In this document: in pieces, positions 3,127-43,402 of the stretch | Layout: each line of letters begins with the position of its first letter | How positions within the stretch are numbered: the stretch's first letter is position 1 | Origin: Phycisphaerae bacterium | GTDB taxonomy: Bacteria > Planctomycetota > Phycisphaerae > UBA1845 | Length of the DNA stretch: 47,814 nucleotides | NCBI GenBank assembly: GCA_029260055.1 | Contig: JAJDDX010000408.1 | Location: 1 to 47,814 of the forward strand | Reading direction: 5' to 3' | Program-made: the position numbers and the translations under genes | Notes under the pieces: generated by a model | Databases searched by the model: none | Seen by the model: only the letters and a program-made list of their open reading frames with translations | Told to the model about the DNA's origin: nothing

Positions 3127-3375
3127 TCGTGTGTCCTCCCGAGCGTCAGCGTAATCGATCTCCTCAACCGAGCATGGTAGTGTCGCTCCGGGGAAGCCGG
3201 ATGCAAACTCGCGCCAGCGACCATGTTCCGGGCACAGGCCCCTTCTTCTATATCACTTACTCACTCCCCCTGATACACTCTCCGTGAACGGAACGATGGG
3301 CTGCCCGCGACGGGGGCGCAAGGACGCGACAGGCCGTTGGCCGCGAGGCGTTCGGCCAGATTCTGGAGAGACACC

Positions 3376-6300
3376 ATGACCCGTTCCATCACACTCGGTC
3401 TAATCGCCTTCCTTCTGACAGCCTCATCGACAACAGCCCAGATGGTGATCTACGTCGACTCACGCGCACCCGCAAACGGGCCCGGACACGACTGGCAGCA
3501 CGCCTACCACTTCCTACGGGATGCGGCTGCGAGTGCAGGGTCGGGTGACGAGATTCGCGTGGCTCAGGGTGTGTACCGACCGGACAGGACCACGCTCTAC
3601 CCCGCGGGAACCGGTAGCCGCTATGCAGCGTTCCAACTCACGACAGGCGTCACTATTACGGGCGGGTATCGCGGCCTGGCCGGCGGAGGCAATCCCGATG
3701 ACCGCGACATCACAGCCTTCGCCACGATCCTCAGCGGCGATCTGAACGGCGATGACGTGCCCGTCGCATGCAAGTGGGACTGGGATTGTGACGACTACGC
3801 GAGAAGATGCGAGGATGGGTTCTGCATGCTGCCCGAGGGCTTGGAAGACAACAGCTACCACGTCGTCACCAGCGCCTGGGCGGATGCGACGGTTGTGTTC
3901 GACGGGGTCACCATTGCCGCCGGCAACGCCGACGGCGACAGCCCGAGCGATCGCGGTGGTGGCATCCACGTCCTTCACGGCGCGCCGACGTTCATCCAGT
4001 GCACCGTCACAGGCAACTGGGCCGTCTACGGCGCCGGGATGTATAACGACTCCAGCGATCCAACACTGACCGATTGCACGTTCAGCGGAAACAGCTCAAC
4101 GGGGACAATCTGGCCCGGGGGGCGAGGCGCCGGGATGTACAACGATGCCAGTAGCCCAACGCTGACCGGCTGCACACTTCACGGCAACGAGGCCCGTCAA
4201 GGGGCTGGGATGTACAACGTCGACAGTTCCAATCCAACGTTGATCAACTGCACGATCAGCGGAAACCGAGCCCACATCACCGGCGGGATATACAACGGAA
4301 ACGGCCACGCTACGCTTGTAGACTGTGTCTTGACTGGGAACTCAGCCGAGTTTAACGGCGGGATGATCAACGACGCCGGCACCGCCACGCTGACAAACTG
4401 CATCTTCAGTGAGAACCTTGCCGGCGTCGGCGGCGGGCTGACCAACGTTGGCACCGCGACGCTCGTTAACTGCACTTTCAGCGAAAACCGGGCAAGTCTC
4501 TACGGTGGCGGGATGATCGACGGAAACGCGAACGCTACGCTGACTAACTGCACGTTCACCGGGAACATGGCCGCCACTGACGGTGGCGGCTTCGTCAACC
4601 AAACGGGCAGCCCGACGCTGACCAACTGCACGTTTAGCGGAAACTCGGCCAATTCCGGCGGCGGGTTCTTCAACGACGCCGGGAATCCGACCCTGACAAA
4701 CTGCACCTTCACCGCGAACTCGGCCACCAATGACGGCGGCGGGTTGCTCAACTACGTACGCGGCGATGGCTCAACACTGGCCAACTGCATCTTCTGGGGC
4801 AACACGGCCCCCGACGGATCCCAGATCGGCGGCTCCGCCACGGCAACGTACAGTTGCGTTCAGGGCGGATGGCCGGGAGTGGGCAACATCGACGCCGACC
4901 CGATGTTCGCGGACGCCGACGGAGCCGATGATGTTCCCGGCACGGCGGACGACGATGTGCGCCTCGAAGACGGCTCGCCGTGCGTCAACGCCGGTAACGA
5001 CGAAGCCTTGCCGGGCGAGGTGACCACCGACTTCGAAGGCGATGACCGCATCTGGAACTGCCGAGTGGACATGGGAGTCGACGAAACCTCGTCGATCGGT
5101 CTGGACTGTAACGCCAACGGCGTGGCGGACGCCTGCGACATCGAGGACTGGACCAGCGCCGACTGCAATTCCAACGGTGTCCCCGATGAATGCGACGTGT
5201 TCCACGTGGACGACGACGCCGGTCCCGGGGGCGACGGTCTGACGTGGCTAACCGCGTACGACGACTTGCAGGACGCCCTCAGCGCCGCCGCCTGCCGCGG
5301 TATGCAGGTCCGGATGGCAGGTGGAACGTACAGACCATCAGCGCGGACAAACCCCGCAGTGCAGCGCACAGCGACTTTCCAACTCGCCAATGGCGTCGCC
5401 CTACGCGGCGGTTATCGCGGCTTGGCCGGCGGAGGCGAGCCGAACGACCGTGACGTGGTCGCCTTTGCCACGATCCTCAGCGGCGACCTGAACGGCGATG
5501 ACGTGCCTGTCGCGTGTACGTGGGACTCGCCGCACTGTAGCGCATTCGGAAGCCTGTGCAAGAATGACGGCTTCTGCATCCTGCCGGACGGTCTCGAGGA
5601 CAACTGCTACCACGTTGTCACCGGTGCCAGCGTCGACGACACGACTGTCCTCGACGGACTCACTATCGCTGGAGGCAACGCCGACGGCGACTTTCCCCAC
5701 GAACGAGGAGCGGGCGTCTACCTTGTGCAGAGCGACGCGGCACTGATTGGTTGCACGGTAACGGGTAGCTCAGCCAACTTCGGTGCGGCGATGTTCAGCG
5801 ACGCCGGAAATCCGACACTGACACGATGCACTTTCTCAGACAGCAGTGCAGTAGGGGCCAGTCCGGGGCGCCGCGGCGGCGGCGTCTATATTGACAGAAG
5901 CGACGCGACGTTCATTGAGTGCGACTTCCGCTACAACGACGCCAGCAGCGGTGCAGGACTGTACGGCTATTACGCCAACCCGATTCTGGTCGGCTGCACC
6001 TTCAGCGACAACTTCGCCTCCCATGATGCCGGCGGGATGAGGAACTTCAACGGCGACCCCACGCTCATTAACTGTGCCTTCTACGGAAATGGCGCGGAGT
6101 TCGGCGGTGGGATGCAGAGTAGCGATTTCGCCACGCTGATCGGATGTCGTTTCAGCGGAAACGGCGCTGCCCAAGGCGGCGGGATGAGTGCCGGAAGCGT
6201 TACGCTTATCAACTGCGCGTTCAGCGGGAATCAGGCTGGGCACGGAGGCGGAATGAGCGTCGGCACCGCAACGCTCACGAACTGCACGTTCAGTGGGAAT

Positions 6301-6936
6301 TCGGCTTCGCGCGGCGGCGGGCTGTACACCAACGAGAACTGGCTTGGCCCAACGCTGACCGGCTGCATCGTATCAGGCAACACAGCCTCGAATGGCCCAC
6401 AAATCTACGGCGCCACCACCGCTAGCTACAGTTGCATCCAGGGCGGCTGGCCCGGGATTGGCAACATCGACGCCGATCCGCACTTTCTCGACGCTGACGG
6501 GCCCGACGACGTCTACGGCACGACCGACGACAACCTGCGGCTCACGCGGAGCGTATCGCCCTGCATCGACGCGGGAGACAACGCGGCCGTGCCGGCCGAC
6601 GCGCTAGACCTCGACGACGACGGTGACACCGCCGAGCCCATTCCGCTCGACTTGGACGGGGCGAACCGCTTCGCGGACGACATCACGCGACCGGACACTG
6701 GCAGCGGCACGCCACCTGTAGTCGATATGGGCGCCTACGAAATCCAGGCCTGGCCCACCGCCGACATCAACGGCGACGGCACGACGAGCCTCGCCGACTT
6801 CAGAATTCTCCTCAGATGTATGAGGGGCCCGGAAGCGGCCATCCCGACGAACTGTGACGACGCCGACGTCGACCGCGACACTGACGTCGACCTACACGAT
6901 TTCCGGCTCCTCCAGCTCCAGTTAGCCGCGACCTGA
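3376..6936 (+). CDS. Secreted right-handed beta-helix protein (choice-of-anchor Q type) with dockerin-like tail
   Basis: A 1,186-residue exported protein. The start at 3376 is chosen over the longer frame (3337) because GGAGAG lies just upstream and the first 22 residues (MTRSITLGLIAFLLTASSTTAQ) are a clean signal peptide. The bulk is two parallel beta-helix regions built of short rungs of the form P-TLTNCTFSGNSA...GGG, similar to polymorphic outer membrane protein repeats. Each helix ends in a CVQGGWPGVGNIDADP block typical of choice-of-anchor Q proteins. Two DCN-x-N-G-V-x-D-x-C-D units join the halves near 5103-5200. The C-terminus has two acidic loops (DINGDG and DVDRDTDVD), a dockerin type I-like calcium-binding pair. 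It is probably cell-surface or extracellular; a polysaccharide-lyase activity is possible for the fold, but no catalytic set was seen. The two halves are an internal duplication. Confidence 0.9.
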   Translation: MTRSITLGLIAFLLTASSTTAQMVIYVDSRAPANGPGHDWQHAYHFLRDAAASAGSGDEIRVAQGVYRPDRTTLYPAGTGSRYAAFQLTTGVTITGGYRGLAGGGNPDDRDITAFATILSGDLNGDDVPVACKWDWDCDDYARRCEDGFCMLPEGLEDNSYHVVTSAWADATVVFDGVTIAAGNADGDSPSDRGGGIHVLHGAPTFIQCTVTGNWAVYGAGMYNDSSDPTLTDCTFSGNSSTGTIWPGGRGAGMYNDASSPTLTGCTLHGNEARQGAGMYNVDSSNPTLINCTISGNRAHITGGIYNGNGHATLVDCVLTGNSAEFNGGMINDAGTATLTNCIFSENLAGVGGGLTNVGTATLVNCTFSENRASLYGGGMIDGNANATLTNCTFTGNMAATDGGGFVNQTGSPTLTNCTFSGNSANSGGGFFNDAGNPTLTNCTFTANSATNDGGGLLNYVRGDGSTLANCIFWGNTAPDGSQIGGSATATYSCVQGGWPGVGNIDADPMFADADGADDVPGTADDDVRLEDGSPCVNAGNDEALPGEVTTDFEGDDRIWNCRVDMGVDETSSIGLDCNANGVADACDIEDWTSADCNSNGVPDECDVFHVDDDAGPGGDGLTWLTAYDDLQDALSAAACRGMQVRMAGGTYRPSARTNPAVQRTATFQLANGVALRGGYRGLAGGGEPNDRDVVAFATILSGDLNGDDVPVACTWDSPHCSAFGSLCKNDGFCILPDGLEDNCYHVVTGASVDDTTVLDGLTIAGGNADGDFPHERGAGVYLVQSDAALIGCTVTGSSANFGAAMFSDAGNPTLTRCTFSDSSAVGASPGRRGGGVYIDRSDATFIECDFRYNDASSGAGLYGYYANPILVGCTFSDNFASHDAGGMRNFNGDPTLINCAFYGNGAEFGGGMQSSDFATLIGCRFSGNGAAQGGGMSAGSVTLINCAFSGNQAGHGGGMSVGTATLTNCTFSGNSASRGGGLYTNENWLGPTLTGCIVSGNTASNGPQIYGATTASYSCIQGGWPGIGNIDADPHFLDADGPDDVYGTTDDNLRLTRSVSPCIDAGDNAAVPADALDLDDDGDTAEPIPLDLDGANRFADDITRPDTGSGTPPVVDMGAYEIQAWPTADINGDGTTSLADFRILLRCMRGPEAAIPTNCDDADVDRDTDVDLHDFRLLQLQLAAT
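3642..4098 (+). repeat. Internal duplication inside the beta-helix gene, copy 1
   Basis: Encodes a block starting at TGVTITGGYRGLAGG that recurs in copy 2 (5388-5850). The shared core ITAFATILSGDLNGDDVPVAC and the following GLEDNSYHVVTSA are nearly identical at protein level and clearly related at DNA level. Confidence 0.8.
5388..5850 (+). repeat. Internal duplication inside the beta-helix gene, copy 2
   Basis: Second copy of the block at 3642-4098, with the same order of motifs (GGYRGLAGGG, FATILSGDLNGDD, GLEDNCYHVVTGA, GNADGDFPHERGAGV). It points to a duplication of roughly half the gene. Confidence 0.8.
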
Positions 6937-9379: not shown

Positions 9380-10067
9380 CCCGCACAGCTCCGGACATCG
9401 CCACGGCCGGTTAGTAGCCCGCGGACGGGGCCGACGAGCATCTCCTCATTCGGAGCCGCCCGGCTACACAGGGCTCATGCCTCTCAATCCTCAGGACTCA
9501 CCGAGATCGCCGCGGAGACTATCCGATCAGGGTAAACACCTACGGGTCCCTCCACCTTCACGCCGGCCCCTCTCAGGCCTGAGAAGACCCGCGCTCACGA
9601 ACGTCTCACAGGGATACTCGGCCAGCATCAGGCCCGGCGGGATCGTCGGAAGTTTCAAATCCGGGCGCCCCGCCACCATCTCATACGTCATTGGCCGCCG
9701 CCCACGCGTGATGGCAAGCAGGACCGGGGGGGAGGAGACTTGTCTCACTGCCTGCGACACACGCCGCGTTTCGCGCCGCCTCGGCACGTGCGGGTGGGCA
9801 CTGCAAAGTAATCACGGCGAAGCATGGCCACCGACTGTCCGATAAGTTAAGGTGGTAAACAGGCGCAGCGGCCTCAAAGTAAGTGGTAGAAACGCGAAGA
9901 GCGCATCGCCGCGCGCCGAGAAGAGTACGGCGACTTCACCCTCGCGGGGATGGAACGTCTGGTTGAGCGATTGGCGCCGCAGGTCCTTCCACGGGAAAGC
10001 CGGGGGCGCTACCGCACCGTCGCAGGCGAGCGTTGCACCGGCGCCCGCGACGCGAGGAGCCGGAACG
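9380..10067. other. 688-base stretch without a confident gene
   Basis: Both strands carry open frames (for example an 86-codon minus frame at 9527-9787), but their composition is rich in Arg/Pro and none has a good start site or recognisable motif. The plus frame that joins the kinase at 9852 begins at a GTG without a binding site. I see no clear promoter for the kinase here. Confidence 0.5.
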
Positions 10068-12563
10068 ATGGGCGAAGGGACGGACCCTGCCGGACCGGTA
10101 CAAGACGCGGGTAGTGTATCGGCGCAAGGGTCGACCAGGTCTCACGGCGATCTCGCCACGATGGCCATCGAGGACATCGAGAGGCTGCTCCTCGAACTCC
10201 AGACCCGCGAAGCTGCGCTTGAGCGTCAAAACGCGGAGCTGCGGAGAATGCAGGTGGAGGCCGAGTCGGCGCGCGAGACGCCACCGCACTCGACGGAAGC
10301 CTATTTTCGCGCCGTCTTCCAGCAGGCGGCGGACTCCTTCGTCGTGATCGATCGCGACACCGGCGAGATCGTGGAGTTCAACGACCGGGCCCACGAGCAC
10401 CTCGGCTACACGCGGGAGGAATTCCAGGGACTCAATCTCACCGACATCGAGGCAGCCGAGGACACGGACGAAATCACGCCGCACATCGCCCGCACCCCGT
10501 CAGGCCCGCACAACGTGCTGGAAACCAAACACAGGACCAAGACGGGCGAATGGCGGGACATGCTGATCAGTTCCAGAGTGCTCTCCGTGCCCGGGCACAA
10601 CCTTGCGGCGAGCATCTGGCGCGATATCACGGAACAGAAGCAGGCCGAGCGGGCGCTGCGGGAGAGCGAGGAACGCTATCGCCGGCTGAGTTCCCTGGCA
10701 CCGGTGGGCATCTTCCAGGCTGACAACGACGGATACTGCCTCTTCGTCAACGAACGCTGGTGCGAAATCGCCGGGCTCACTCCGGACGAGGCGAGAGGCA
10801 CCGGCTGGGCGGCCGGCCTGCATCCGGATGACCGCGAGCGCGTGTTCACCGCTTGGTACGAGTGCGCGCGGACGGGTGGGGAGTTCAAACTCGACTACAG
10901 GTTTCGGACTCGCGCCGGGAAGGTCACCTGGGTCAGCGGAAATGCGATTCTTCTTGCAGATGCAGCCGGTGAGCCAAGCGGGTTCCTCGGCACGATTTCC
11001 GACATCACGGCAAAGAAGCAGGCGATCGAGGATCTGCACCGATCCCAAGAGCGGTACCGCGCGCTGTTCGAGCAGTCGTTGGATTCCAACGTCGTCATCG
11101 ACGGCGGCACGGGGGAGATCGTCGAATTCAACGACCGTGCATACGGGGACCTCGGTTACACACGTGAGGAATTCCAACAGCTCACGATCGCGGACATTGA
11201 CGCCATCGAATCATCCGACGACGTCACCGAGCACGTCCGGAAGATCATGCACGAAGGAAGCGACATCTTCGAGACACGGCACCGGACGAAGAACGGCGAC
11301 ATCCGCGATCGCCTCGTCAGTTCGAAGAAGCTGTCGATTCCCGGTAGCAACCTCGTGTCGAGCGTCTGGTGTGACATCACGGAGCGCAAGCGGCTCGAGG
11401 ACCAGTTGCGGCACGTACACAAGATGGAAGCGCTCGGTCAATTGGCCGGCGGCGTGGCGCACGACTTCAACAACCTACTTACAGTCATACTCGCCAACGC
11501 CGAGACGCTGCTCTCCACGTCGATGCCGGGGGCGGCCGCCCTGACCGACGAGCGGACCGTCGTCAGCCTGGAGCAAATCAAGACCGCCGGGCAGCGCGCC
11601 GCCACGTTAACGCGGCAGCTCTTGGCGTTCAGCCGCAAGGAGGTGACGAGAATAGAAGTGCTCGATCCGGTGACCATGATCACCGGCACGCAGAGCCTGC
11701 TTCGCCGCTTGATCGGGGAGCACATCACGCTCAGCTTCGAGCCGGAACCGGATGTCGCGCACATTCGCGCCGATGCCAACCAGATCGAACAGATGATCAT
11801 GAACCTCGTCGTCAACGCCGCCGACGCCATGCCCGACGGAGGCACGATCACGGTGAACGTCGCCAACACAGAGCTGAGCACCGCGCACGTGACGGCCCAC
11901 ACGGGCGCGCGGGCCGGTCCCCATGTCGTCTTCACGGTGCGCGATAGCGGCGTGGGTATGACGCCGAACACGATGAGTCGCATGTTCGAGCCGTTCTTTA
12001 CGACCAAACCCGTTGGGAAGGGAACGGGGCTGGGGCTCGCCACGGTGTACGGCGTCGTGACGCGCGCCGAAGGGCACGTTACGTGTGAAAGCGAGCCGGG
12101 AAAGGGGACGACCTTCAGTGTATACCTTCCGGCCACGCAGAGCGAGAGTGTTCACCCTGAAGGCGCCACGTCGAAGGACGTTCCGCGCGGCGACGAAGTC
12201 GTTCTGGTTTGCGAAGATGAAGCGATGGTGCGCGACGTCACCTGCGCCGCGCTGAGGTCCCGAGGCTACGACGTTCTGGTGGCGAGTCACGGCAGGGAGG
12301 CCCTGCGGATCGCCGATGAGCGCGATACGCCGATTGACTTGCTCGTGTCCGACTTGGTCATGCCGGAGATGAACGGGCTGCAGCTCGCGAAAGCCTTGTC
12401 CGACCGCTACCCGCAGATGCGGACCCTGTTCGTCTCGGGTTACCCGTCTGACATCATCGAGGCACCACGGGATGCAGGCGAGCAGGTAGAGTTCCTCCAA
12501 AAGCCCTTCGGCCCCACGGCTTTGCTCCGGCGCGTCCGTCGAATCCTCGACGACGATGCGTAG
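10068..12563 (+). CDS. Hybrid sensor histidine kinase with three PAS domains and C-terminal receiver
   Basis: 831 residues, cytosolic (no membrane segment). The start at 10068 is chosen because GAGGAG (10054-10059) lies 8 bases upstream; the frame is open back to 9852. Order: a short coiled coil (IERLLLELQTREAALERQ), PAS1 (about 75-200), PAS2 with PAC (about 205-325), PAS3 (about 330-450), a HisKA-type box GGVAHDFNNLLTVI with His465, then HATPase with N-box MNLVVNAADAMPDGG, DSGVGM and FTTKPVGKGTGLGLATV, and finally a receiver domain with phospho-acceptor Asp762 (LLVSDLVMPEM). PAS1 and PAS3 are close copies of each other. The layout matches the VAHDFNNLL family of hybrid kinases in delta-proteobacteria and planctomycetes. 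The signal is unknown and no separate response regulator is adjacent. Confidence 0.95.
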   Translation: MGEGTDPAGPVQDAGSVSAQGSTRSHGDLATMAIEDIERLLLELQTREAALERQNAELRRMQVEAESARETPPHSTEAYFRAVFQQAADSFVVIDRDTGEIVEFNDRAHEHLGYTREEFQGLNLTDIEAAEDTDEITPHIARTPSGPHNVLETKHRTKTGEWRDMLISSRVLSVPGHNLAASIWRDITEQKQAERALRESEERYRRLSSLAPVGIFQADNDGYCLFVNERWCEIAGLTPDEARGTGWAAGLHPDDRERVFTAWYECARTGGEFKLDYRFRTRAGKVTWVSGNAILLADAAGEPSGFLGTISDITAKKQAIEDLHRSQERYRALFEQSLDSNVVIDGGTGEIVEFNDRAYGDLGYTREEFQQLTIADIDAIESSDDVTEHVRKIMHEGSDIFETRHRTKNGDIRDRLVSSKKLSIPGSNLVSSVWCDITERKRLEDQLRHVHKMEALGQLAGGVAHDFNNLLTVILANAETLLSTSMPGAAALTDERTVVSLEQIKTAGQRAATLTRQLLAFSRKEVTRIEVLDPVTMITGTQSLLRRLIGEHITLSFEPEPDVAHIRADANQIEQMIMNLVVNAADAMPDGGTITVNVANTELSTAHVTAHTGARAGPHVVFTVRDSGVGMTPNTMSRMFEPFFTTKPVGKGTGLGLATVYGVVTRAEGHVTCESEPGKGTTFSVYLPATQSESVHPEGATSKDVPRGDEVVLVCEDEAMVRDVTCAALRSRGYDVLVASHGREALRIADERDTPIDLLVSDLVMPEMNGLQLAKALSDRYPQMRTLFVSGYPSDIIEAPRDAGEQVEFLQKPFGPTALLRRVRRILDDDA

Positions 12564-18767: not shown

Positions 18768-19634
18768 TTAACCTGAGTGGAGCCAGCCCGCAAACAAGAC
18801 GAGCACGGCCACGAATGCCGCGGCGAGGACGAGCGTCCTGGCGGGGCGGAAGATGTACTCCCGGATCATGATCTTGTCAGGCCAAAGCAGCGCGCGGCGA
18901 ACCAGGTCTCTCGGATCGGTAAGGCGTCGCGTCGTTTCTTCGTTTTCCCACTCCTCGTCGTCGGGGATCTTGCCGGCCGCTTCGCGGGCGAAGTCGTCTC
19001 TCCCCTTGTTCTGCTTCGCGCGGATGGCGAGGAGCACGTGCCCTGCCTCGTGGCAGAGCCTTTCCGTAAAAGTCCGGCGCGGGTCACACAGGCAAACATG
19101 AAGCCAAAGCTGCGCGGGATGGAGGCACGGCCCGTAGACTTTGCTGGGCTTGAGCGGGTTACAACTGGCGGAAATCCGGCCGAGTCGAGCCATGGTGATC
19201 ACGATGTCCACGGCGTCATCGACGAGCGGAGCTAAGGCCGACCTGGCGCCGACACGCGTCCGGAGCATGTCGCGGAGTTTCGGTTCCAGCGCGATCGCGC
19301 GCCGGCTCGCATCACGCGCCGTTCGCCAATGCCACGGGCCGAACGCGTATACGACCACCGCCGCCCATACACCGACTACGCCCCGCCAGAGGATCAACCC
19401 GGCCTGTCGCCGCGTGACGCGCCAGCCTCCGCCCGCAGCGGCGAGCCCCCGGCGCGCGCTGCCGACGTCCGTGGGGTCTCGACCCGGTTCTGCCGCGAGG
19501 TCCCCGGGACTGGGTGCTGTGGCTGCTGCGACAGCGACCGCGCAGTTCGAGGGAGTTGTAACGGTAGACCGGCTGGTGCCGGCCGCCGCAAAAGCGGGAA
19601 GACTCAACAGGATTATCCGAGACCTGACGCACAC
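18768..19634 (-). CDS. Membrane protein with HExxH zinc-protease-like motif
   Basis: 288 residues from a GTG at 19632-19634, chosen because GGGAGG lies 7 bases upstream and the protein then begins with a signal-like sequence (RSRIILLSLPAFAAAG). The open frame continues to 19766 without a binding site. A transmembrane helix (LILWRGVVGVWAAVVVYAFG) is followed by a domain of about 120 residues with LCHEAGHVLLAI, giving H195-E196-xx-H199, the zinc-binding core of gluzincin/metzincin-like peptidases; the third ligand is not obvious. A second helix (LVLAAAFVAVLVLFAGWLHSG) ends the protein. It may be an integral or envelope peptidase. It diverges from the kinase-like gene across 222 bases that hold an A/T-rich promoter region. 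Confidence 0.7.
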   Translation of the reverse strand: MCVRSRIILLSLPAFAAAGTSRSTVTTPSNCAVAVAAATAPSPGDLAAEPGRDPTDVGSARRGLAAAGGGWRVTRRQAGLILWRGVVGVWAAVVVYAFGPWHWRTARDASRRAIALEPKLRDMLRTRVGARSALAPLVDDAVDIVITMARLGRISASCNPLKPSKVYGPCLHPAQLWLHVCLCDPRRTFTERLCHEAGHVLLAIRAKQNKGRDDFAREAAGKIPDDEEWENEETTRRLTDPRDLVRRALLWPDKIMIREYIFRPARTLVLAAAFVAVLVLFAGWLHSG

Positions 19635-19791
19635 ATCCGGACCTCCCGAGACCGCAGCACGGTACCAAACAGCGATTCTGCCGTCAAGAGAAAATGTCTC
19701 GTAGTTTCTCATTTTGCCGTACGGGCTGATTGCGACACACTCCCGCGGTTTCTCCTTTGGGCACATCTGTAGTTTTTTTCTTATTTCTTAG

Positions 19792-19820
19792 TTGACATAA
19801 ATCCCATGGCGTGGTACACA
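19792..19820 (+). promoter_or_regulatory. Sigma70-type promoter for the kinase/receiver pair
   Basis: A perfect TTGACA at 19792-19797, a 17-base spacer and TACACA at 19815-19820, preceded by an A/T-rich run (19771-19790) that looks like an UP element. Transcription would begin near 19827, 30 bases before the ATG. Confidence 0.55.
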
Positions 19821-19856
19821 TACTACCTGTTTCGGACATCGTGTTGGTAGCGCTCG

Positions 19857-21677
19857 ATGGAGGCGTCAGCCTTGACGGCTCTGGATTTCATGCTCACGCA
19901 AGGCCCACGGCTGGTTAACTTGGCCGTGCTTCTCCTGGGCCTTTACTGCCTTTGGAAGGTCAGGCATCGACATCCGATCGCCTTCGGCCACTTCGCTGCT
20001 GTCAGCCCGCTGTTGCTGTGGCTCACCGGCTTCGCTCTCTTCTGGGCGATCGAGTATTTGGTTCTGCTCATCCATCCTGATGGTTCACTCCACGGCCCAG
20101 CGCGTCCGCAGTATTTGCAGCTCGCGGTCCTTCTGCTCGAAGTGGCGACGCTTGCGTGCATCATGTTCGGCGTGGCAAGTTATTGGCGCCGCCTTCGCGG
20201 CTGCGTTTACGATCGATGGTCAGCGTTCATCTTCCCGTGCGGGCTCTGCGCGGGTCTCTTGGCCGTCGGAATCGTGCTGATTGCCCGCCCGGAAGAGCAC
20301 CGGCAGGCGGCGTCCGGCGTGGGAATGTGTTGGGCTTCGCTCCCGGAAGCACTTATGTCCGCATCGGCCATGTTCGGCCTGGGTATGTTCTTCGTGGAGT
20401 CGTACTCACGTCTCCGGCAGAGGCTCGTAGCCAGGTTTCTGCTGTGGACCATGCTGGTGTATGGTGCCGTGCAACTCGTCCAGGTTCTGGAGGTGGGGCT
20501 TCAGCGGCAGGAACGCCTCAATTCAGCTCTGTTTGTCGCCTGCATCTTCCTCAAAGGTCCACTTCTCGGCGGCATGGTCGGGCTGGGTCTCGTCGGCAGG
20601 TCAACTGCCAAGTTGCGCAAGTCGCTGGGACAGGCGGCCATCGTGGTTGACGAGAGAGATCGCGTCATTTTCAGCGCCTTCGAGGGCACGGCGCACCCGA
20701 TCCCCGAGATTCAGGTCGGCGAGCCGCTGGAAACAGCGTTGCACCAGGAGGACAGAAGGAGCTACGGGCGATGGAGCACGAACGTCCCGGGCGCAAAGCA
20801 GGGGCACGTTGCCCATCAGTGCAGGTTGCGCAATGGTGAACGCGTGCGCGTTGAGCGGATGCAGTTCGACGACGTCGGGGACGCAGACGGGCATGCGTCA
20901 GCTGTCGTTCACCTATTAGCGGACGACGAGAGCTACGTCGTCTTCCAGGGACAGGACCTCGCCGCGCTGCACGAAGCGGTTACCCTCTGGTCCGCGCTTC
21001 AGCACGTGTTGCGAGGTAATCTGGATCAAGTCAGTACACTGGTCAAGGAGGCCGTCCGAAACGGAAACCAGGCACGTCTCGACGAACTGCCTAGGGTCTG
21101 CAGCCACCTTAACGATGAGGTCATGGAACAGCTCTCACTGATTCAGCACATCTATTCCGACGCGGGCTACGCGAAACTGGTCGTCAAGGAGGAGATGATT
21201 GATATCGCCGCGATCCTGCGCAGCGAGGTGGATCGCTGGAAGATGGTCATGGGTTGGGACGCGAAGCACTACAACGTCTCCTTACGCAGTGATTCACGGA
21301 TCATGGACCCTGAGAGCCTGATCGAATTCACGAGCTCGCTCGACACGTTCTACTGTGAAATCTCGGTCGTTATTCTGAAAACGACGATCCGTGAGATGCT
21401 GCTTAATGCCCTGAAACACCGGGCCCACGGCCCGGTTAGCGTCAAGTTGACGCGGGCACAGGACGGTCGTCCGGTGGTTCACGTGCGCAATTCCCTTCGC
21501 GGGCGATCGGAGGAGGACGTGATGAAGGCGGTCGCGGCTCGGAACGGTGGCATTCAGCTTGTGCGCCGCGCGCTGGAGCACACGCGAACTCAACTGAATT
21601 ATCAGTTCAACGATTCCCAGGCTCCCGAGGAATCCACACTGACAGCAACCTACAAGATCGGGCTGGTGGTCACATGA
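19857..21677 (+). CDS. Membrane histidine-kinase-like protein with degenerate catalytic motifs
   Basis: 606 residues. The first about 245 hold roughly seven hydrophobic helices, then a PAS-like segment (LGQAAIVVDERDRVIFS, about 258-274). A dimerisation-like helix follows, with LQHVLRGNLDQVSTLV at about 381-396, then a HATPase-like C-terminus. In the HisKA-like type VLRHNLRN the phospho-histidine stands where this protein has Gly387. The N-box is present (IREMLLNALKH, Asn517), but the DxGxG box reads VRNSLRG (Asn545 for Asp) and the last glycine box is NGGIQLV. It is therefore kinase-like but may not autophosphorylate in the usual way. The stop overlaps the next gene by four bases (ATGA), so the two are translationally coupled. 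The signal is unknown. Confidence 0.75.
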   Translation: MEASALTALDFMLTQGPRLVNLAVLLLGLYCLWKVRHRHPIAFGHFAAVSPLLLWLTGFALFWAIEYLVLLIHPDGSLHGPARPQYLQLAVLLLEVATLACIMFGVASYWRRLRGCVYDRWSAFIFPCGLCAGLLAVGIVLIARPEEHRQAASGVGMCWASLPEALMSASAMFGLGMFFVESYSRLRQRLVARFLLWTMLVYGAVQLVQVLEVGLQRQERLNSALFVACIFLKGPLLGGMVGLGLVGRSTAKLRKSLGQAAIVVDERDRVIFSAFEGTAHPIPEIQVGEPLETALHQEDRRSYGRWSTNVPGAKQGHVAHQCRLRNGERVRVERMQFDDVGDADGHASAVVHLLADDESYVVFQGQDLAALHEAVTLWSALQHVLRGNLDQVSTLVKEAVRNGNQARLDELPRVCSHLNDEVMEQLSLIQHIYSDAGYAKLVVKEEMIDIAAILRSEVDRWKMVMGWDAKHYNVSLRSDSRIMDPESLIEFTSSLDTFYCEISVVILKTTIREMLLNALKHRAHGPVSVKLTRAQDGRPVVHVRNSLRGRSEEDVMKAVAARNGGIQLVRRALEHTRTQLNYQFNDSQAPEESTLTATYKIGLVVT

Positions 21678-22612
21678 AAGCTATCATCGTCGACGACGAC
21701 TACAGGTCGCTGGAGAAGCGCGCCAAGTTCTTTCTTCAGTGGCATGACGATGGATACGTCCCGCATCGGGAGTGCGCCTTCCGAGATCTCACAGTCGTAG
21801 CCACGCCTCTGTTCCCGAGCCGCAACCTGATCGAAGACTTGCGCGAGACATTCAAGGCCGCACCCGTCGAAATCTGGGCAGATGAGCAGTTGTTCCACTC
21901 GAGGGCCGCGTTTGTCGAACACTTCGAGAAACACGTGCAACTCCGTGACCTCATTCTGTGGGACTATCATCTGGGCCAAGTCCCATGGGCAAAAGAGGAC
22001 CAGACCGCTTCGATCCATGTGCTATCTGAAATCCGTCGACGACGGCCGACACACGCGATCATCTGGACCCGTGACCAATTCGTCGTCAACGTCAAGACGA
22101 TTGAGGAGTTTCGGCGCTACTTCACGTCGGACGAGTTCATGGCTGAGGGGTTCAACGCAGACCCGGTCAAGCTGCGCCAGTACTTCCGTGACATCCAAAA
22201 CGCCTCCCCAGACTGGGTGACCGTCTGGGCCGGCGAAACCGGTGGGCCGTTCGAGCAGTTTCCCATCGAGCGCAAGGAAGTGGAGTTCCGCAGGCGGTAC
22301 GCTGATTGGTGCATCGATGAGAACACGGGCGTGTTCGAAACCAAACGCCACCTGATGAAGCCAAGTCCGCGGCCGTCGCCATCGAATTGTGCCACGCTAT
22401 GCGAATTGATTCTCAATCCGGAAGGCATCGAGTCGGATCCCTCCGACTCCAGGGCCGCGAACGCCAAAGCCCAACGCATCAGCGGCATCCGATCCTGGCT
22501 CGCTGACGCCGGCGAGGCGGACGCAATCCCGCGTATGACCGACAACCGCTATCGGATCGAGTCCGGTATCACGGTACTGATCGTGCCGAAGAAGCAGCCC
22601 GCAACCCTGTGA
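21674..22612 (+). CDS. Atypical response-regulator-like protein
   Basis: 312 residues. It begins like a receiver domain (MKAIIVDDDYRSLEKRA, acidic Asp7-Asp9) and has a phospho-acceptor-like strand LRDLILWDYHLGQ (Asp97), a switch-like AIIWTRD (Thr132) and helices in between. The spacing from the acidic pocket to Asp97 is about 40 residues longer than in ordinary receivers, owing to an insert around 25-75. The C-terminal about 160 residues contain no DNA-binding motif or enzyme domain I recognise. The ATG overlaps the kinase-like stop, and the pair most likely works together. It is convergent with the glycosidase-like gene 63 bases away. The output is unknown. Confidence 0.65.
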   Translation: MKAIIVDDDYRSLEKRAKFFLQWHDDGYVPHRECAFRDLTVVATPLFPSRNLIEDLRETFKAAPVEIWADEQLFHSRAAFVEHFEKHVQLRDLILWDYHLGQVPWAKEDQTASIHVLSEIRRRRPTHAIIWTRDQFVVNVKTIEEFRRYFTSDEFMAEGFNADPVKLRQYFRDIQNASPDWVTVWAGETGGPFEQFPIERKEVEFRRRYADWCIDENTGVFETKRHLMKPSPRPSPSNCATLCELILNPEGIESDPSDSRAANAKAQRISGIRSWLADAGEADAIPRMTDNRYRIESGITVLIVPKKQPATL

Positions 22613-39319: not shown

Positions 39320-42300
39320 ATGGAACGATTTGTGATGGCTGACAACACCGCCCTGGACACCGTCTACGACCCGAAAGCGGTCGAACCCGAGATTTACGCC
39401 GAGTGGGAATCGAGCGGCGCGTTTCGCTCGAAGCCCGCGGACACGCCGCGCGACAAGACCTTCACTATCGTCATTCCGCCGCCGAACGTAACGGGGGCCC
39501 TTCACCTTGGGCACGCACTGAACAACACGCTTCAGGACATCCTCGTCCGTTATCACCGGATGCGCGGCTTCAACACGCTCTGGCAGCCCGGCACCGACCA
39601 CGCGGGTATCGCCACGCAAGCGGTCGTGGAAAAACGCATCCTCAAGTCCGAGGGCAAGACCCGCCACGGCCTTGGCCGGGAGGAACTGGTCAAGCGCATC
39701 TGGCAATGGAAGGCCGACTACGAGAAACGAATCATCAGCCAACTCAAGCTGATGGGTTGCTCCTGCGATTGGGAGCGCACGCGGTTCACGCTGGACGACG
39801 GGCTGGCTCGCGCGGTGCGGCACCAGTTCTTCCGCATGTTCAAGGACGGGCTCATCTTCCGAGGCAAGCGGCTGGTCAACTGGGACACGCAGCTTCAGAC
39901 CGCCGTCGCGGACGACGAGGTCTACCACGAGAAGCTCAAAGGCCACTTCTGGCACTTCAAGTATCCGGTCATCGACCCGAAGCCGGGCGAGCCGGAGCAC
40001 GTGATCATTGCGACGACGCGTCCTGAAACGATGCTGGGCGACACAGCCGTCGCCGTGCATCCCGATCCCGAAGGCTTCATGGACCGGCTCGACGCTCGCC
40101 TGAAGGATGACCTTGCCAAGGCACCGGCCAAGGACAAGGCGGAGATCGAGGCGAAGCTGGCGTCACTGGCGGAGCGTCGTGAGTCGTCGCTTGCGTCGTT
40201 GGCGAAGTTGCGCGACATGGCCAAAGACGGGCGGATGTTGATGCTGCCACTTGTCGAGCGGCCGATCCCACTGATCGCCGATGAGTGGGCCGATCCGACC
40301 AAGGGCAGCGGCTGCGTCAAGATCACACCGGCGCACGACCCGAACGACTACGAGGTGGGTCTGCGTCATCAACTACCGATGATCAACGTGCTGAGTGCCG
40401 ACGGCATGGTCGCGCGAATCATCGAGCCTGACGGCAGCGTGAACGCTCACTCGGGGGATTACGAAGGCCTGACCTTCGCCGCCGAGGGACGTGCGAAGGT
40501 CGTGGAAGACCTCGAAGCACGCGAGTTGCTCCACGAGATCGAAGACCACGAAGTCGAGATCGGCCATAGCGACCGCAGCAAGGTCCGTATCGAACCCTAC
40601 TTGTCCGATCAGTGGTTCGTGCAGACGGGGGATCTTCCCGAGCCGCAGGCTTCCCCCGAGCCGCAGGCTTCAGCCTGCGCGGACGCACAACGGCAATCCG
40701 GGCCGCAAGCACCGTACCGCGTTCCACGTCCGACCCCTGATCTCGCCCAGGGCGCCACGCTGCTCACCTGGACCACGTATGGCAACTGGCTCCCCGGAGA
40801 CGAGCGCGGCTTCGTCTCGCGCGTGCCAACCGATGAAGGCACGCGCGAACTACACAATCTTCCGGGTGAACCTTACGACGACGATGAACCCGAACTCCGT
40901 GAAAGTGCGCGCGAGCGCATGAAGGGCAAGCCGGTCCTTCTGACTCCGGAGCACATCGACTCCGTCGTTTCGACAATCGCCGCCGCATGCGAACGGCACG
41001 CGATCGAGCTGCTGGCATTCGCCGTGATGCCGAATCATATCCACGTGCTCTGCCAGAGCGAGTTGCACGGGCGCGACCTGCTTCAGTACTTGAAGGGCGA
41101 CCTCTCGCGCTCGCTGAACAAGGGGTTCGCCCTCGCCGGGTCGCCCCGGTGGTGGACCAAGAGCGGCTCGCGCCGGCGCATCAAAGAGAAGTCTGACCTG
41201 ACCGCCGCCATCGAGTACGTGCAGAAGCAGAGTGGCGCGCTCGCGGTGTGGTCCTTTGATCAGGATGACGGAAAGGTTGTCGAGTTAGTGAAGGCCGCGC
41301 AGGCTGAAGCCTGCGGCTCAGGTGGGCTTACGCTCGGCGATGGTTCTCGCACGCCCGGGCTAGCGCAGGCAGCGATGGAGGTGGTCAAGGACGGAGCCGT
41401 CACCATCTATCCCGAGCGGTACGGCAAAAGCTACCTGGACTGGCTCGCCGAGAAGCGCGACTGGTGCATCAGCCGCCAGCTTTGGTGGGGACACCGAATA
41501 CCGATCTTCACGCTCAAGTTGAGCCAACAGGACGTCGTTGACAGTACTCCGCTTGCGCACGACTTGAGCGTGCTCTTCGAAGCAACAGGTATCAGTGATG
41601 ACGTGTTTGTTCGACAGGAACATGAGTACTACTGGCGAATCGCCGCTCGATCCCAAGAAGCCAGCGAAGTGCTAGCGGGATTGGAGAAGTTCCTTCTACC
41701 GCCGGCGCTTGACACCGAAATCGTACCCGGTGAAGAGCCGCCAGAAGTCGTCGACCACCCCCCTGATGCTCTGAAAGACATCGAGTCTGTTGTAGTGCAG
41801 ACGTTCCTCGGAAAAGGGCGTTATGTCATCCAAGACTCCGACGTCCTCGACACCTGGTTCAGCTCCGCCTTGTGGCCGTTCAGCACGCTCGGTTGGCCCG
41901 AGAAGACGGACCATCTCAGGCAATACTACCCCGGTAGCGTGCTTTGCACGTCGCGCGACATCATCACCAACTGGGTCGCGCGCATGGTGATGTTCGGCCT
42001 CTACTCGATCGGCGAGGTGCCGTTCGACGAGGTCTATATCCACCCGAAGATCCTCGACGGCCGCGGCGAGACGATGAGCAAGTCCAAGGGCAACGGCGTC
42101 GACCCGGTGGACATCATCCAGACACACGGGGCGGACGCGCTGCGCTACTCGATGGCGGACATGTGTACCGAGACGCAGGACATCCGCATGCCCGTCGACT
42201 ACATCTGCCCCCACTGCGGCAAGCTCACGGACCAAAGTGCGGCCGTCAAAGCCGAGGAGCAGGCTCGCAAGTCTCGCGGCGAGAAGCTGGACCACAAGGT

Positions 42301-43402
42301 GCAGCCGGCGGACTGCGTGCGCGTCAAGTGCCGCAACTCCGACTGCGGCTGGGAGTTCGCCACCCAGTGGGCGGACGACACGCTCAAGGAGGAACTCCAT
42401 CTCGCGCGCGAGACCTCGGAGAAGTTCGAGGTCGGGCGTAACTTCTGCAACAAGCTTTGGAACGCCGCACGGTATGCGCTTCTCAACCTCGAAGGCACGC
42501 CGTGTAACAAACTGGACATCGCAGCCTTACCACCCGAGGACCGCTGGATTCTGGCGCGACTCAACCAGACCATCCGCAACTACCATCAGTACGTGCGGAA
42601 GTACCAGTTCTCGGCGTCGATCAAGGAACTCCGCGTCTTCTTCTGGGAGTCGCTTTGCGATTGGTACATCGAGCTGACGAAGCCGAGGATGGCCGCCCCG
42701 CCGACCGATCCCGCCGGTGGGAGCGCCAGGCAGGTCCTCGCTTTCTGCATGGATCAGATCTTGCGGCTGCTGCACCCGACGGTGCCGTTCATCACGGAGC
42801 ATCTGTGGAAGAGGCTCGGCGCGCTCGCACCGAAGCGCGGCTTCCCCGGCGTCGCGGAACTCGAGACGGACAGGGCGTTGATCGAATCGGCGTTCCCGCC
42901 TGAAGCCGGCCACGTCGCAGCTGATGACGCGGCCGTTCTCGAAACATTCGCCGAGTTACAGAACGCAGTGCGCGGCGTGCGCGACTTGCGCACGCAGTGC
43001 ACGGTACCGCCGCGCAACAAGGTGACCGTCACCGTGGTCGTGCCGGCCGAGCACAGAGACGCCTTCACTGCCCAGGCGCACGTCGTCAAGCACATGGCGA
43101 ACATCGGCGATATCTCGATCGCGACCGAGGGCAAGCGTCCCAAGAACGCCGGAAGTGTGAGCGTCGAAGGCCTGCGCATCTTCGTCCACGACATCAGCGA
43201 CGACGATGCTGAGCGCAAGCGAACCAAGCAGGCGCTGGCCGACGCGGAGCGGCAGATCAAGGGCAAGGAAGGCAAGCTCGGAAACGAGAAGTTCGTCGCC
43301 AACGCCAAGCCGGAGGTCGTCGAGGCGGAGCGTCAGCGGCTGGCTGAGCTTGTCGCCCAACGCACGACCCTCGAAGCGCACCTCGCCGAGCTGGACTCGT
43401 AG
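39320..43402 (+). CDS. valS: Valyl-tRNA synthetase carrying an in-frame RAYT transposase domain
   Basis: 1,360 residues; starts at 39320 and 39335 are both possible. It charges tRNA-Val. Class I motifs are intact: PPPNVTGALHLGH (HLGH at 62-65), GTDHAGIATQ, the CP1 editing domain (about 200-430, with KITPAHDPNDYEVG), WCISRQLWWGHR (about 715), DVLDTWFSSALWP, the KMSKS loop as TMSKSKGNG (Met919) and a C-terminal tRNA-binding coiled coil. A CPHC...C-x4-C zinc-ribbon insert follows the core near 955-1010. Between LSDQWFVQTGD and GSRTPGLAQAAM (about residues 439-674) an Y1 transposase domain is inserted in frame: HUH H573-I-H575 (VMPNHIHVL) and Tyr633 (AAIEYVQKQSG). Removing the 708 bases between matching GAT triplets (40631 and 41339) restores about 1,124 residues. 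No stop or frameshift is seen. Confidence 0.9.
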   Translation: MERFVMADNTALDTVYDPKAVEPEIYAEWESSGAFRSKPADTPRDKTFTIVIPPPNVTGALHLGHALNNTLQDILVRYHRMRGFNTLWQPGTDHAGIATQAVVEKRILKSEGKTRHGLGREELVKRIWQWKADYEKRIISQLKLMGCSCDWERTRFTLDDGLARAVRHQFFRMFKDGLIFRGKRLVNWDTQLQTAVADDEVYHEKLKGHFWHFKYPVIDPKPGEPEHVIIATTRPETMLGDTAVAVHPDPEGFMDRLDARLKDDLAKAPAKDKAEIEAKLASLAERRESSLASLAKLRDMAKDGRMLMLPLVERPIPLIADEWADPTKGSGCVKITPAHDPNDYEVGLRHQLPMINVLSADGMVARIIEPDGSVNAHSGDYEGLTFAAEGRAKVVEDLEARELLHEIEDHEVEIGHSDRSKVRIEPYLSDQWFVQTGDLPEPQASPEPQASACADAQRQSGPQAPYRVPRPTPDLAQGATLLTWTTYGNWLPGDERGFVSRVPTDEGTRELHNLPGEPYDDDEPELRESARERMKGKPVLLTPEHIDSVVSTIAAACERHAIELLAFAVMPNHIHVLCQSELHGRDLLQYLKGDLSRSLNKGFALAGSPRWWTKSGSRRRIKEKSDLTAAIEYVQKQSGALAVWSFDQDDGKVVELVKAAQAEACGSGGLTLGDGSRTPGLAQAAMEVVKDGAVTIYPERYGKSYLDWLAEKRDWCISRQLWWGHRIPIFTLKLSQQDVVDSTPLAHDLSVLFEATGISDDVFVRQEHEYYWRIAARSQEASEVLAGLEKFLLPPALDTEIVPGEEPPEVVDHPPDALKDIESVVVQTFLGKGRYVIQDSDVLDTWFSSALWPFSTLGWPEKTDHLRQYYPGSVLCTSRDIITNWVARMVMFGLYSIGEVPFDEVYIHPKILDGRGETMSKSKGNGVDPVDIIQTHGADALRYSMADMCTETQDIRMPVDYICPHCGKLTDQSAAVKAEEQARKSRGEKLDHKVQPADCVRVKCRNSDCGWEFATQWADDTLKEELHLARETSEKFEVGRNFCNKLWNAARYALLNLEGTPCNKLDIAALPPEDRWILARLNQTIRNYHQYVRKYQFSASIKELRVFFWESLCDWYIELTKPRMAAPPTDPAGGSARQVLAFCMDQILRLLHPTVPFITEHLWKRLGALAPKRGFPGVAELETDRALIESAFPPEAGHVAADDAAVLETFAELQNAVRGVRDLRTQCTVPPRNKVTVTVVVPAEHRDAFTAQAHVVKHMANIGDISIATEGKRPKNAGSVSVEGLRIFVHDISDDDAERKRTKQALADAERQIKGKEGKLGNEKFVANAKPEVVEAERQRLAELVAQRTTLEAHLAELDS
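40637..40682 (+). repeat. Left REP end of the valS element (family C) with tandem half-copy
   Basis: The 25-bp arm at 40658-40682 contains the palindrome GCAGGCTTCAGCCTGC. It is preceded by a direct half-copy: CCCGAGCCGCAGGCTTC occurs at 40637-40653 and again at 40655-40671. Confidence 0.85.
41295..41319 (-). repeat. Right REP end of the valS element (family C)
   Basis: Exact reverse complement of 40658-40682 over 25 bases, containing the palindrome GCAGGCTGAAGCCTGC. Confidence 0.85.

Follow-up and report, generated by a model that had tools for sequence, protein, structure and literature searches.

An overlapping gene pair for a worn membrane histidine kinase and a receiver-like partner in a Phycisphaerae bacterium: a possible diverged phosphotransfer system

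Introduction

Does a kinase-like membrane protein that seems to lack both its phospho-histidine and the Asp of its DxGxG box still pass a phosphoryl group to the regulator encoded by the gene overlapping its own? This question is raised by two genes, here called ORF1 and ORF2, of a Phycisphaerae bacterium (assembly GCA_029260055.1, contig JAJDDX010000408.1), which lie in the 47,814-nucleotide stretch of DNA analyzed here (the window). An earlier sequence-only reading of this locus offered two answers, namely signaling without classical phosphotransfer, or the use of another phosphoacceptor such as His383. Our preferred explanation, to which we give about an even chance, is that the two genes form a two-component system which has diverged strongly but still works by phosphotransfer.

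Gene organization and upstream region

ORF1 (19857..21677, + strand) encodes a 606-amino-acid putative membrane sensor with seven helices and a histidine kinase-type C-terminus, as judged from its reading frame, codon bias, hydropathy, and HATPase_c homology. ORF2 (21674..22612, + strand), recognized by its reading frame and codon bias, encodes a 312-amino-acid receiver-like regulator, and its start overlaps the ORF1 stop in the sequence ATGA, which implies co-translation. The GC contents at codon positions 1/2/3 are 0.66/0.41/0.74 in ORF1 and 0.60/0.42/0.74 in ORF2, and the codon bias of both is clearly positive in the annotated frame only. Because third-position GC reaches 0.74 and the codon bias is confined to their own frames, we regard both as genes, in agreement with the earlier claim of two overlapping coding frames. 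The degenerated motifs described below and the lack of a known relative would suit a two-component pair that is losing its function, but over their 2.7 kb neither frame is interrupted by a stop or frameshift, the codon bias is normal, and the ATGA overlap is precise; we consider such decay highly improbable.

The pair is flanked on the - strand by genes for a 332-amino-acid protein upstream and a 684-amino-acid protein downstream. Since these genes point away from it or converge on it, the pair is an isolated two-gene unit. A strong promoter had been proposed in front of it. The TTGACA at 19792 is a perfect match, but the best -10 candidate at a spacing of 16-18 from it agrees at only three of six positions, and a promoter scan covering one promoter type found no site, so that the proposal could not be upheld. 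The divergent 332-amino-acid neighbor (18768-19766, - strand) may have membrane helices, carries CHEAGHVLL as an HExxH-like motif, and matches no Pfam family; the 90-bp intergenic region common to this gene and the pair (19767-19856) is a possible regulatory target.

Three further genes of the window, all on the + strand, may be mentioned. An ordinary hybrid kinase (PAS repeats, HisKA, HATPase_c, and receiver) is encoded at 9852-12563, 7 kb upstream of the pair, and a 1199-amino-acid protein with beta-helix repeats and a dockerin domain at 3337-6936. The 1360-amino-acid valyl-tRNA synthetase frame at 39320-43402 contains an in-frame Y1_Tnp domain (IS200-like HUH transposase) at residues about 540-637, which carries MPNHIHV and places a single-strand transposase inside an essential tRNA synthetase.

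Membrane part of ORF1

The earlier description of ORF1 as a seven-helix membrane protein agrees with the Kyte-Doolittle profile, which has seven hydrophobic segments at residues about 17-35, 54-72, 89-107, 124-142, 162-180, 190-208, and 225-243 (19905..20585, + strand), a putative sensor. This part has no Pfam family above the cut-off, with DUF805 appearing only at E 2.1. The segment between it and the predicted DHp domain (residues about 256-355; 20622..20921, + strand) resembles a PAS domain by eye only, and profile searches gave no significant family.

ATPase domain of ORF1

Judging from several profile comparisons, the C-terminal ATPase domain of ORF1 is clearly homologous to those of histidine kinases. 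Pfam HATPase_c matches the whole of ORF1 at E=1.8e-4, and residues 482-606 alone at E=1.1e-5 with 26.2 bits, 0.2 bits short of the curated cut-off of 26.4; the kinase-like C-terminus noticed earlier is borne out by this homology. Aligned to 25 kinases of the same genome, ORF1 scored 38.5, whereas the highest of 200 shuffles reached 20.3. The nearest of the class-specific ATPase profiles is the HisKA_3 type (score 43), followed by the HPK1 type (37), and the profile probability for ORF1 versus the HPK1 and HisKA_3 ATPase domains is 89-93%. The genome itself has 72 HATPase_c matches and no HisKA_3 match, though the ATPase domain of ORF1 is nearest to the HisKA_3 type.

Profile alignment to the HPK1 and HisKA_3 ATPase domains places the N-box at Glu513-Met-Leu-Leu-Asn517-Ala-Leu-Lys520 (21393..21416, + strand), with Asn517 and Lys520 kept and with the ExxxN form of the HisKA_3 kinases compared here. 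In the same alignments, Asn545 of HVRNSLRG takes the place of the first residue of DxGxG (Asn545-Ser-Leu-Arg-Gly549; 21489..21503, + strand), just as the sequence-only reading had it when it reported the Asp as missing. The G-box, located by forced global alignment at Asn563-Gly-Gly-Ile-Gln-Leu568 (21543..21560, + strand), is poor, reading NGGIQL versus the consensus GTGLGL. Thus neither the DxGxG nor the GxGL box expected of GHKL sensor histidine kinases is matched in ORF1, and the domain appears worn but recognizable.

AgrC, a working kinase, has no DxGxG and carries Asn for the D-box Asp (PMC10482373), and kinases of the HPK10 family lack the D box, the F box, and the H-box Pro (PMC3353171). 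Because of these precedents, the loss of the D-box Asp in ORF1 is no evidence against kinase activity. ORF1 shares with HPK10 members (AgrC and ComD) a polytopic sensor, the D-box Asn, and the absence of the H-box Pro and of the F-box (PMC3353171; PMC10482373; PMC4873836), but it lacks Tyr at position +2 relative to the His, and ORF2 is not recognized as LytTR. The HPK10 family was absent from the Pfam, NCBIfam, and PDB sequence matches of ORF1. The HisKA_3/HPK7 kinases (NarX, NarQ, and DesK type) are the best-scoring ATPase relatives of ORF1 and have in common with it the ExxxN N-box and a short lid, whereas ORF1 lacks their LHD H-box (Arg386-Gly387 standing in register) and DxGxG, and Pfam HisKA_3 misses it.

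Candidate phosphoacceptor of ORF1

Weight matrices of 27 residues around the phospho-His were built for four classes (25 HPK1 windows from the same genome, 7 haloarchaeal, 9 HisKA_3, and 6 HPK8), and all four were scanned along ORF1 and compared with shuffled sequence. The result depends on the register: the haloarchaeal VLRHNLRN places Gly387 (21015..21017, + strand) at the His position, HisKA_3 places Arg386 there, and the common HELRTPL places His383 (HVLRGNL; 21003..21005, + strand), as did a forced global profile alignment. By eye, the HPK8 H-box also aligns with His383. The earlier statement that the phospho-His is absent, being replaced by Gly387, therefore stands only in the haloarchaeal register, and even there His383 outscores Gly387 (+2.7 versus -4.7 bits, not significant). 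The haloarchaeal model scores highest at His383, and so does the HPK1 model among cytoplasmic positions, so that His383 is the top cytoplasmic candidate in two of the four models, though significantly in none; the best scores of the HisKA_3 and HPK8 models fall elsewhere. The fraction of shuffles reaching the best ORF1 score was 0.51 for HPK1, 0.07 for haloarchaeal, 0.09 for HisKA_3, and 0.06 for HPK8, none of which is significant. Because no H-box model stands convincingly above the shuffles, neither a missing His nor the identity of His383 as the phosphoacceptor is proven by these comparisons, but His383 appears to fit HxLRxxL at least as well as Gly387 fits VLRHNLRN.

The residues around His383 are not the usual ones: where an acid is common at +1 and Thr/Asn at +4, ORF1 has Val and Gly. 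Its distance to Asn517 is 134 residues, versus 111-121 in the other kinases of this genome (one pattern-matching outlier ignored), which indicates a longer linker in ORF1. A single-sequence AlphaFold2 model of residues 356-606 has a helical hairpin at residues 367-402 and 411-436 (20955..21164, + strand), with a pLDDT mostly of 62-73, middling there and poor elsewhere in the model. His383 lies mid-way in the first helix, about 19 residues from its end, so that this is probably the two-helix hairpin with a mid-helix His expected of a DHp domain.

Several His residues (372, 383, 417, and 431) lie in the predicted hairpin. Their presence, together with the weak receiver similarity of ORF2, would allow the kinase to use another His of the DHp domain (372, 417, or 431) or to phosphorylate another protein, ORF2 being controlled by a different mechanism. 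We think this unlikely: overlapping genes normally encode partners, nothing independent points to another acceptor, and His372 and His417 score worse than His383 with the HPK1 and haloarchaeal models.

Receiver-like half and C-terminus of ORF2

ORF2 weakly resembles a receiver in its N-terminal half, as judged from profile alignment. Its first 185 residues scored 19.1 against a profile of 35 receivers, which 2 of 120 shuffles also attained. In this alignment, Asp7-Asp8-Asp9 (21692..21700, + strand) corresponds to the receiver acidic pocket and Asp97 of DLILWDYHLG (21962..21964, + strand) to the phosphoacceptor, while Thr132 (22067..22069, + strand) is, by eye from spacing and motif, the putative equivalent of the conserved Thr/Ser. 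ORF2 has an excess of ~44 residues before Asp97, and an insert relative to canonical receivers was placed by eye at residues about 29-62 (21758..21859, + strand), between alpha1 and beta2. When it was dropped, the receiver alignment became longer and the score was 19.0, reached by none of 120 shuffles, an optimistic figure since the residues to be removed were picked after reading the sequence. Pfam PF00072 and other receiver families did not match ORF2, PF00072 not even with the insert removed. No Lys occurs about 22 residues past Thr132, the nearest being at +9 (141) and +34 (166).

With its Lys as at least one active-site residue off the usual place and with its unusual insert, ORF2 is similar to pseudo-receivers and atypical response regulators, some of whose features it shares; it differs in that it appears to keep the phosphoacceptor Asp, the Thr, and the acidic pair, and in that PF00072 misses it.

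The C-terminal region (residues 205-312; 22286..22609, + strand) has no family assigned by profile searches and no match in the family libraries. The earlier description of a receiver-like gene with a long insert and an unrecognized C-terminus is consistent with these alignments and searches. Several candidate assignments were rejected. An OmpR-type winged helix had no Pfam match, and 37 of 120 and 26 of 120 shuffles reached the Trans_reg_C profile score; the stretch AANAKAQRISGIRSWL...YRIES as a recognition helix was unsupported by profiles from 35 regulators; and a PDB match to BURRH repeats was dismissed as a sum of weak repeat matches. PADLOC and PHROGs gave no match for the pair, the structures predicted by AlphaFold2 from single sequences were of low quality (mean pLDDT 48 and 51), and no meaningful match was found by Foldseek.

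Distribution

No relative of the pair was found in its own genome or in 392 genomes of the phylum, the 60 nearest genomes, 114 of the order, and 397 of the class, nor in 85,000 genomes scanned twice by exact peptides, nor among plasmids and viral contigs, part of these searches having been run with one of the two proteins only. What was found consisted of generic ATPase-domain matches and chance matches. As a control, both flanking proteins were searched in the 114 genomes of the order, giving a single partial match. Because they are almost equally unmatched, the pair does not stand out as an orphan, and the missing relatives appear to be a property of the whole genome stretch or of sampling. 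The contamination estimate of the genome is 4.84%, so that a foreign contig is possible. Since no homologue was found, no residue of the pair is demonstrably conserved.

Phosphotransfer or conformational signaling

Pseudo-histidine kinases and pseudo-receivers are recognized categories (PMC12632262). In the main rival explanation, ORF1 is such a pseudokinase, which would bind ORF2 and signal through conformation or sequestration, with no phosphorylation of a His. This would agree with the degenerate H, D, and G boxes of ORF1, with the Gly387 (haloarchaeal register) or Arg386 (HisKA_3 register) at the His position, and with the lack of a Lys at the usual spacing in the ORF2 receiver; the His is missing from about 0.9% of HisKA domains (PMC12632262). 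The established example is DivL of Caulobacter (PMC4211667), in which likewise a degenerate histidine kinase core is functionally paired with a receiver and acts as a sensor or a platform for docking. In DivL, however, only the His is changed (to Tyr) and the other boxes are all kept (PMC4211667), whereas in ORF1 the ATPase pocket is degenerate and a His is possibly present. Against a pseudokinase, ORF2 seems to keep the two acids, the Asp, and the Thr, which suggests that phosphorylation still matters, and in ORF1 His383 is available and N517 and K520 are kept. We hold this explanation to be possible but doubtful, and give it that much weight because an acidic residue is lacking at +1 from His383, the G-box is poor, none of the H-box profiles reaches significance, and the receiver Lys is off its usual spacing. 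It would not be a new kind of system, since both categories are already recognized. The stricter version, in which a kinase core without self-phosphorylation controls ORF2 by nucleotide-dependent binding alone and forms a cognate pair without phosphotransfer, seems to us improbable.

We favor the phosphotransferring system because four receiver residues are apparently kept and His383 is available. Likewise, of the two earlier alternatives, another phosphoacceptor (His383) is favored over signaling without classical phosphotransfer, because of the mid-helix position of His383, its best placement in two models, and the residues apparently kept in ORF2. In the diverged two-component system that we prefer, ORF1 would sense a signal via its seven-helix membrane part and dimerize through the DHp hairpin; a low-efficiency, AgrC-like ATPase pocket with Asn for the D-box Asp would use ATP to phosphorylate a histidine of the DHp domain, for which His383 is the likeliest candidate; from there the phosphoryl group would pass to Asp97 of ORF2, which is translated together with ORF1; and ORF2 would act via its C-terminal domain, possibly on DNA.

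Each of the features called degenerate in the pair has a known precedent, and we therefore see the pair as a curiosity and not as proof of a new mechanism. Its unusual trait is that two atypical-looking partners are translationally coupled. As a hypothesis drawn from one sequence, such a coupled pair with two atypical partners would make a clean test case for signaling between cognate two-component partners without phosphotransfer.
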